A DNA stretch of 64,000 bases from the NCBI GenBank assembly GCA_945874765.1, contig CAMCHQ010000001.1, forward strand, positions 62,001 through 126,000, written 5' to 3'. Every line of letters begins with the position of its first letter. Position 1 is the stretch's first letter. The notes beneath the pieces are model-generated. The model saw nothing but the letters and a program-made list of their open reading frames with translations. It searched no databases and was not told where the DNA came from. Positions 50,560-51,181 of this stretch are shown here, piece by piece. Made by a program: the position numbers and the translations under genes. Origin of the DNA: an uncultured Clostridia bacterium. GTDB taxonomy: Bacteria; Bacillota; Clostridia; Oscillospirales; Acutalibacteraceae.

Positions 50560-51030
50560 TTACTCTCTTGTAATAATCAGCTTAAAATTATCGTTAATAT
50601 TATTAATTTCATCTTTTATAAACTCAGGATAAAGACTGATATTGTCAAGATTATTTGTATCAAGCCAAGCGTATCTATTTATTCGTTTTTCTTCTGCTAA
50701 TTCAAACTCAGATTCAAAATGATTAAAAGAAGTATTAGAAATATCAACATAATAATACATACCGATTTCGTGAAAATTCTTGCCACATTCATCAAAAAAG
50801 CACTCATTGAGCCAAAGAGGTCTGTAATCGGGTATATCGATTTTCAACTCCTCTTTAATTTCACGCAAAAGCGCTTCCTCGCTCGTTTCACCAAAAGTCA
50901 CCCTGCCGCCCGGCAAATAATACCAATTGGCTTTTGTATCTCTTTGAGCAAGAATTTTGCCGTCATTAACTATAACAGCTGCAACACGGTAATTAAAATA
51001 CCCCGCTTTTGTTTTAAGTGTTAAGTCCAT
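50560..51030 (-). CDS. Nudix hydrolase
   Basis: 156 residues. The Nudix box is complete: GRVTFGETSEEALLREIKEE (GX5EX7REUXEE). The N-terminal strand pair (YRVAAVIVNDGKILAQRDTK, WYYLPGG) and WLDTNNLD near the end fit a family that hydrolyses nucleoside diphosphates linked to other groups; the substrate is not predictable. GGAGG precedes the ATG. The 5' leader is unusual: it contains a 5S rRNA-like segment and a terminator hairpin ahead of the ribosome-binding site. Confidence 0.92.
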   Translation of the reverse strand: MDLTLKTKAGYFNYRVAAVIVNDGKILAQRDTKANWYYLPGGRVTFGETSEEALLREIKEELKIDIPDYRPLWLNECFFDECGKNFHEIGMYYYVDISNTSFNHFESEFELAEEKRINRYAWLDTNNLDNISLYPEFIKDEINNINDNFKLIITRE

Positions 51031-51056
51031 ATTGAACCTCCAAAATAAAAAAAATA

Positions 51057-51080
51057 AAGCCCTTGCAAATGCAAGAGCTT
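51057..51080 (-). terminator. Terminator hairpin in the Nudix leader
   Basis: Minus strand AAGCTCTTGC and GCAAGGGCTT pair (one wobble) around ATTT, followed by TATTTTTTTTATTTT. It lies between the 5S-like segment and the Nudix ribosome-binding site, so it can act as an attenuator or the end of a small RNA. Confidence 0.8.
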
Positions 51081-51112
51081 AACGACCGTGTTCGGAATGG
51101 GAACGGGTATAC
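51077..51112 (-). ncRNA. 5S rRNA-like fragment (helix II/III, loop B/C region)
   Basis: On the minus strand ACCCGTTCCCATTCCGAACA and then CGG, three bases and GTTAAGC match the conserved middle of Firmicute 5S rRNA (helix III with loop C, the part bound by ribosomal proteins L5 and L18). The rest of 5S (helix I and the 3' third) is missing, so it is not a functional 5S gene. It overlaps the 5' arm of the adjacent terminator. It could be a decayed copy or a mimic that binds a ribosomal protein. Confidence 0.65.
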
Positions 51113-51135
51113 ATCTTTTTATCAGTTTTTGCTGA

Positions 51136-51166
51136 TGAAATTAATATAGCATAGATTAAAATAAAT
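51136..51166 (-). promoter_or_regulatory. Promoter of the 5S-like leader and Nudix gene
   Basis: Minus-strand TTGACA, 17-nt spacer, TATATT, within about 51138-51166. The resulting transcript would begin near 51132 and include the hairpin ATCAG/CTGAT, the 5S-like segment and the terminator. Confidence 0.65.
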
Positions 51167-51181
51167 GTCAAATTATATGGG

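Follow-up and report, generated by a model that had tools for sequence, protein, structure and literature searches.

5S rRNA-like leaders with intrinsic terminators precede kinase, Nudix and resistance-like operons in a clostridial lineage

Why should a segment resembling 5S rRNA, with a promoter and a terminator of its own, lie immediately upstream of a Nudix hydrolase gene? The question arises from a 64,000-nucleotide stretch of the genome of an uncultured Clostridia bacterium (Acutalibacteraceae; contig CAMCHQ010000001.1), termed here the window and numbered from its first base. A first-pass annotation, made from the letters of the DNA, had raised three possibilities: a ribosomal protein-binding 5S mimic that alters terminator formation, a small 5S-mimic RNA, or a decayed 5S copy.

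Results

Organization of the window leader

The promoter, hairpin, 5S-like segment and terminator that the first-pass annotation placed directly before the Nudix ribosome-binding site are all present, on the minus strand between 51171 and 51037, arranged as follows.

51143..51171, minus strand: promoter TTGACA-17-TATATT, matching 11 of 12 consensus bases, the second hexamer preceded by TG
51121..51136, minus strand: 5' hairpin ATCAG-caaaaa-CTGAT, read from the sequence, its first base near the expected transcription start
51114..51117, minus strand: 5' strand of helix II, AAGA, pairing with UCUU at 51076-51073 (sequence and duplex prediction)
51078..51110, minus strand: 5S-like core, RF00001 positions 25-57, kept in the 32 tabulated leaders
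51108-51103 and 51089-51082, minus strand: helix III within the core, ACCCGU with ACGG-UC-GU
51102-51090, minus strand: loop C within the core, which also includes the start of the helix II 3' strand region
51057..51080, minus strand: intrinsic terminator AAGCTCTTGC-ATTT-GCAAGGGCTT, a 10-pair stem, then a T-run
51041..51058, minus strand: T-rich terminator tail reaching the Shine-Dalgarno sequence (sequence)
51037..51041, minus strand: Shine-Dalgarno sequence GGAGG (sequence)
50560..51030, minus strand: Nudix hydrolase gene, 156 aa, ATG at 51030 (open reading frame; PF00293, E 1.8e-13)

Read along the minus strand from 51171 to 51030, AAAAAGATGT separates the 5' hairpin from the 5S-like stretch ATACCCGTTCCCATTCCGAACACGGTCGTTAAG, inside which the 10-bp terminator begins. 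The terminator 5' arm overlaps both the 5S-like core and the helix II 3' strand, GTTAAGC of the 5S-like segment extending into it as had been proposed, and the pairs of this arm are kept across related leaders, with compensatory changes. The window and the aligned leaders share the layout of an attenuator, i.e. a promoter, a leader and an intrinsic terminator before the Shine-Dalgarno sequence.

In a cmscan analysis of 401 bases, the segment at 51110-51078 scored 26.5 bits (E 0.002) against RF00001, a score that covers only positions 25-57 and lies below the gathering score of 38 bits; the window leader is therefore not a 5S rRNA gene as defined by that score with helices I, IV and V. The related leader L015 reaches 39.2 bits by a loose end-to-end alignment and has a terminator and a gene there instead. 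The window segment is 94% identical over 34 nt to the single complete 5S gene detected in the genome, which is located elsewhere. No Rfam family, including T-box elements, riboswitches and r-leaders, was matched in the window at curated thresholds, and seven related loci compared with Rfam at E values up to 0.5 returned only 5S rRNA and one chance match. The only 5S gene detected in the genome is followed directly by two near-identical repeats of ~130 bases (L001, 1200-1500).

Recurrence of the leader

The strongest proof that the arrangement is not due to chance is that the whole order recurs in other species before other genes. Recurrence was first evident from a DNA search across 80 genomes of the genus; at the loci inspected the order is hairpin, GAGATAACCTGTTCCCATTCCGAACACAGAAGTAAAGCTCTTGCA, terminator, Shine-Dalgarno sequence and ATG, before different genes. 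Two covariance models (R1, built from 18 type 1 leaders, and R2, from 13 type 2 leaders; the types are defined below), together with inspection upstream of Nudix homologues, gave 38 leaders, as tallied by hand from the result tables, with 36 in 32 of the 80 genus genomes and two in neighboring genera (G149 and G112). The first-pass annotation had proposed a search for the segment upstream of genes in other Clostridia, and had made its idea depend on conservation beyond the source genome; these counts show the segment upstream of genes and conserved beyond that genome.

A scan of an 84,980-species genome collection with a type 1 pattern found leaders confined to the Eubacterium coprostanoligenes group of gut bacteria, the other matches being true 5S genes or coding sequence. 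The carriers in this group include a cultured strain, E. coprostanoligenes ATCC 51222 (L087), which makes the leader system testable. The type 2 pattern, from which leaders with a different terminator could escape, gave 0 of 394 in a sample of the order, and model R2 matched type 2 in the genus only, with the same proviso for leaders elsewhere that have a different terminator. A mobile or viral element was considered and rejected: two patterns gave no leader in viral contigs, and the plasmid and phage matches inspected are ordinary 5S genes.

Three leader architectures

The genus leaders comprise 21 of type 1 and 14 of type 2, with G031 carrying both types, and one of type 3. In type 1, to which the window leader belongs, the promoter is followed by the 5' hairpin, the 5S-like domain and a terminator whose 5' arm opens with the helix II 3' strand, such that CUCUUG is common to terminator and helix II. 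The terminator of L156, a type 1 variant, is a different one that again shares CTTG, which could pair with CAAG before helix III. L129 (G005) has an insertion of ~50 bases separating the 5' hairpin from helix III, the hairpin, 5S-like core and terminator being kept.

Type 2 leaders have no 5' hairpin; full helices II and III are followed by the invariant GATGCTGNTACATC (in L190 without its first G) and then by an independent terminator. The invariant 14-mer may form a hairpin, one that shows no covariation, or else open a short reading frame, MLLHRPV..., which in several copies crosses the terminator and is in frame with or overlaps the gene. The sequence (G)ATGCTGNTACATC precedes the terminator in the type 2 leaders L039, L040, L043, L045, L048, L049 and L120, and likewise in L123, L190, L198, L204, L206, L207 and L217. 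An 8-bp alternative pairing, ACAGCGUU:GAUGCUGU, seen in some type 2 folds, was dropped, being conserved in neither L204 nor L207. In type 3 (L163), it is loop C/helix III that supplies the terminator 5' arm, CCGAACACA, whose partner is TGTGTTCGG.

A near-consensus promoter lies at a near-fixed distance upstream in nearly all of the 32 tabulated leaders, those of L129 and L034 being the weakest. Before the metallophosphoesterase leaders L035, L036, L038 and L055, a palindromic stretch, aatttgggatatatc...ggatatatcccaaatt, lies just upstream of or touches the promoter, and is perhaps an operator.

The 5S-like structure is under selection

Helices II and III maintain pairing via compensatory changes and loop C is fixed; the 5S-like structure is under selection. 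In type 2, 92.9% of cells pair in helix II, where five of the six pairs have changed on both sides, and 97.4% in helix III; the corresponding type 1 values are 81.5% and 99.1%. The type 1 5' hairpin stem is 100% paired, with one compensatory pair, and loop C and its flanks are near-invariant across 32 leaders. Whole-structure covariation was 0.282 for type 2, compared with 0.184 ± 0.016 for shuffled alignments (0/500) and at most 0.108 for slid partners, and 0.131 for type 1, compared with 0.077 ± 0.010; the alignment rows are related, so the shuffle counts are not probabilities, though the slide control agrees. Swapping the strands of helix II gave a test of no power, the 3' strands being all but identical.

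Genes behind the leaders

The families behind the leaders are Nudix hydrolases, a P-loop kinase, nucleotidyltransferases, methyltransferases, metallophosphoesterases and ABC exporters. The kinase, which is weakly related to 'DNA topology modulation protein', is often fused or adjacent to a Nudix domain, and kinase and/or Nudix genes occur in 29 of the 38 operons (hand count). At locus L106, nucleotidyltransferase, Nudix, kinase and MATE genes are preceded by APH and GNAT genes, and L099 (696-7393) has the series methyltransferase-kinase-Nudix-GNAT-methyltransferase-GNAT-MATE; these two longer clusters, in which leader-headed operons lie, resemble resistance clusters. There are no ribosomal protein genes among the families behind the leaders, whose context is not that of r-leaders. 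The reading frame behind one well-conserved leader (L034/L152, G060:C32) has no usable start codon and may be a decayed gene.

Relationship to 5S rRNA genes

To judge from alignments, in which the 5' hairpin too matches the 5S 5' end, the leader seems to have arisen by capture of a 5S gene's 5' half, with a terminator in place of the distal half. Without the core, the hairpin regions aligned to the 5' end of family 5S genes with a summed score of 137.8, compared with 41.4 ± 10.4 for shuffled sequences (300 in all, the highest at 71.3), a sum that is not a probability because the leaders are mutually related. The hairpin regions of single leaders, L034, L026 and L008 among them, each outscored all 300 shuffles; that of the window is not individually 5S-like (p 0.32 by shuffle comparison). 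In helix III, most leaders have CTG/CAG, as do 5S genes of sister genera, whereas the genus's own 5S genes have CCG/CGG, indicating that the leaders are not fresh 5S fragments. The window leader, unlike most, has CCG/CGG.

Discussion

The best-supported reading of these leaders is that of a ribosomal protein-binding 5S mimic altering terminator formation. More specifically, we favor, with a probability of roughly 0.55, a transcription attenuator in which the mimic is bound by uL5, perhaps together with uL18, so as to promote read-through; that the ligand is a protein, that binding gives read-through, and that a stress is thereby signaled are points that we infer. RNA polymerase starting at the leader promoter would first make the 5' hairpin and the 5S-like domain, with its bulged helix III, loop C and short helix II. 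If this domain were unheld, the terminator would form, capturing the closing strand of helix II or, in one species, helix III itself, and transcription would stop before the gene. A 5S-binding protein in free excess, the likeliest being uL5, at loop C/helix III, with uL18 a further possibility, would lock the 5S-like fold, weaken the terminator and allow the operon to be transcribed. An excess of free uL5/uL18 would report translation stress or a disturbance of ribosome assembly, a signal which the resistance-like and nucleotide-handling genes would fit.

The leaders have the features that such a ligand would recognize, i.e. 5S helix III and loop C with a bulge, along with helix II, uL5 (at loop C/helix III) and uL18 being the natural binders of this part of 5S rRNA. 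PDB 1mji, which we take to be an L5-5S fragment complex, was among the entries of one match to the source genome's uL5. The coupling to termination differs between the types. In the type 3 leader, the 5S-like fold and the terminator are mutually exclusive because the terminator 5' arm is itself loop C/helix III; the terminator is at -27.3 kcal/mol, compared with -16.5 kcal/mol for forced helix III, which is the first of the two to fold in the nascent chain. In type 1, helix III by itself can coexist with the terminator, and only the 3-5 bp helix II competes with it. In type 2, the folds allow the terminator to form alongside the 5S-like domain, and no switching step is apparent. A structure that excludes the terminator is clear in L163, type 1 shows partial overlap, and in type 2 exclusion is not apparent; the lead idea of the first-pass annotation is supported in part. 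In types 1 and 3, one and the same 5S-like domain is overlapped by different terminators, as expected if holding the domain promotes read-through. What has been added to that idea is the leader family, two further architectures, the likely origin from a 5S 5' half, and the association with kinase/Nudix/resistance-like operons. We propose, tentatively, a wider history in which this lineage recruited the 5' half of a 5S gene, as an exaptation, to sense free 5S-binding proteins, a sign of ribosome-assembly or antibiotic stress, and to activate these operons through antitermination.

The evidence for a cis-regulatory leader applies equally if the reader of the 5S-like fold is not a free 5S-binding ribosomal protein but, e.g., an RNase, a factor associated with the ribosome, a drug or other small molecule or, in type 2, a ribosome on a short upstream frame, and the non-ribosomal nature of the genes is in keeping with such a reader. 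We consider this a possible but rather unlikely alternative, given that loop C and the bulged helix III are strictly conserved, as a 5S-binding protein would demand; as to an upstream frame, the invariant element of type 2 could start one that runs through the terminator, but it has no Shine-Dalgarno sequence and type 1 leaders have no such frame. It appears improbable that the product is a terminated RNA of ~80 nt acting in trans, by titrating uL5/uL18 or disturbing assembly of the 5S ribonucleoprotein, with the downstream gene expressed via incidental read-through. The promoter and terminator would indeed bound a small RNA with a 5S-like domain, yet a free RNA needs neither an adjoining Shine-Dalgarno sequence nor recurrent gene families, and in almost every copy the terminator lies immediately before that of the gene, the same few families recurring.

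The presence of two copies before unrelated genes in each of several genomes (G003, G053, G060 and G031) is what might be seen if a promoter/terminator cassette derived from a 5S gene had spread without any regulatory role; this is made very improbable by the compensatory changes within the 5S-like domain and by its repeated overlap with terminators. A decayed 5S rRNA copy, for which true homology to 5S rRNA and the incomplete 5S remnants of other Clostridia (PMC7812874) might speak, is scarcely tenable: the segment is kept in 32 of 80 genus genomes, covaries, and is followed by a terminator and a gene, and helix III in most leaders departs from that of the genus 5S genes. Where a pseudogene would be without constraint on sequence or structure, the leaders are conserved and covarying; together with the repeated association with the same gene families, this excludes the decayed copy that the first-pass annotation had offered as an alternative.

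The preferred reading, i.e. an attenuator sensing a 5S-binding protein, has partial parallels in known systems. The L20, S15 and S4 leaders mimic the rRNA binding sites of ribosomal proteins (PMC7247131), a source in which no 5S, uL5 or uL18 mimic was found; the present leaders likewise appear to imitate an rRNA site and may thereby control the gene behind, but they mimic 5S rRNA, look derived from a 5S gene and precede non-ribosomal genes, whereas r-leaders control ribosomal protein operons. The autogenous control of bL25 (rplY) in Escherichia coli (PMC10931766) also has a 5S-binding ribosomal protein acting on an mRNA leader, as would be the case here; it differs in being translational repression of the protein's own gene, in γ-proteobacteria, with other leader features. 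No bacterial 5S-mimic leader was found in the open-access literature searched, absence from which does not prove that none has been published. The Peptococcaceae 5S pseudogenes and remnants are, like the present segments, incomplete 5S genes in Clostridia, but these have a decayed appearance and are mostly found at rRNA operon ends, after a normal 5S gene (PMC7812874), whereas the leaders are structurally conserved and joined to genes.

With the attenuators found before resistance genes, the leaders have in common a promoter, a leader and a terminator directly before resistance-like genes. In most known resistance-gene attenuators, the ribosome stalls on a leader peptide, which type 1 leaders do not have; a sensing upstream frame is exemplified by PMC12121999. 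In plants, the P5SM element of the TFIIIA pre-mRNA is a 5S mimic (Hammond 2009, as cited in PMC5972288). P5SM resembles the leaders in being a 5S-like element within another transcript, and is bound by a 5S-binding ribosomal protein; it is eukaryotic and governs exon skipping of TFIIIA, whereas the leaders are bacterial and lie beside transcription terminators, followed by a Shine-Dalgarno sequence and ATG. Bacterial rRNA mimics have hitherto been known for a few ribosomal proteins, acting on ribosomal protein operons, and a 5S mimic has been known in plants; the present leaders, if correctly interpreted, would place non-ribosomal, stress- or resistance-like genes under the direct influence of the state of ribosome assembly, and would provide a clear case of an rRNA gene fragment turned regulatory RNA.
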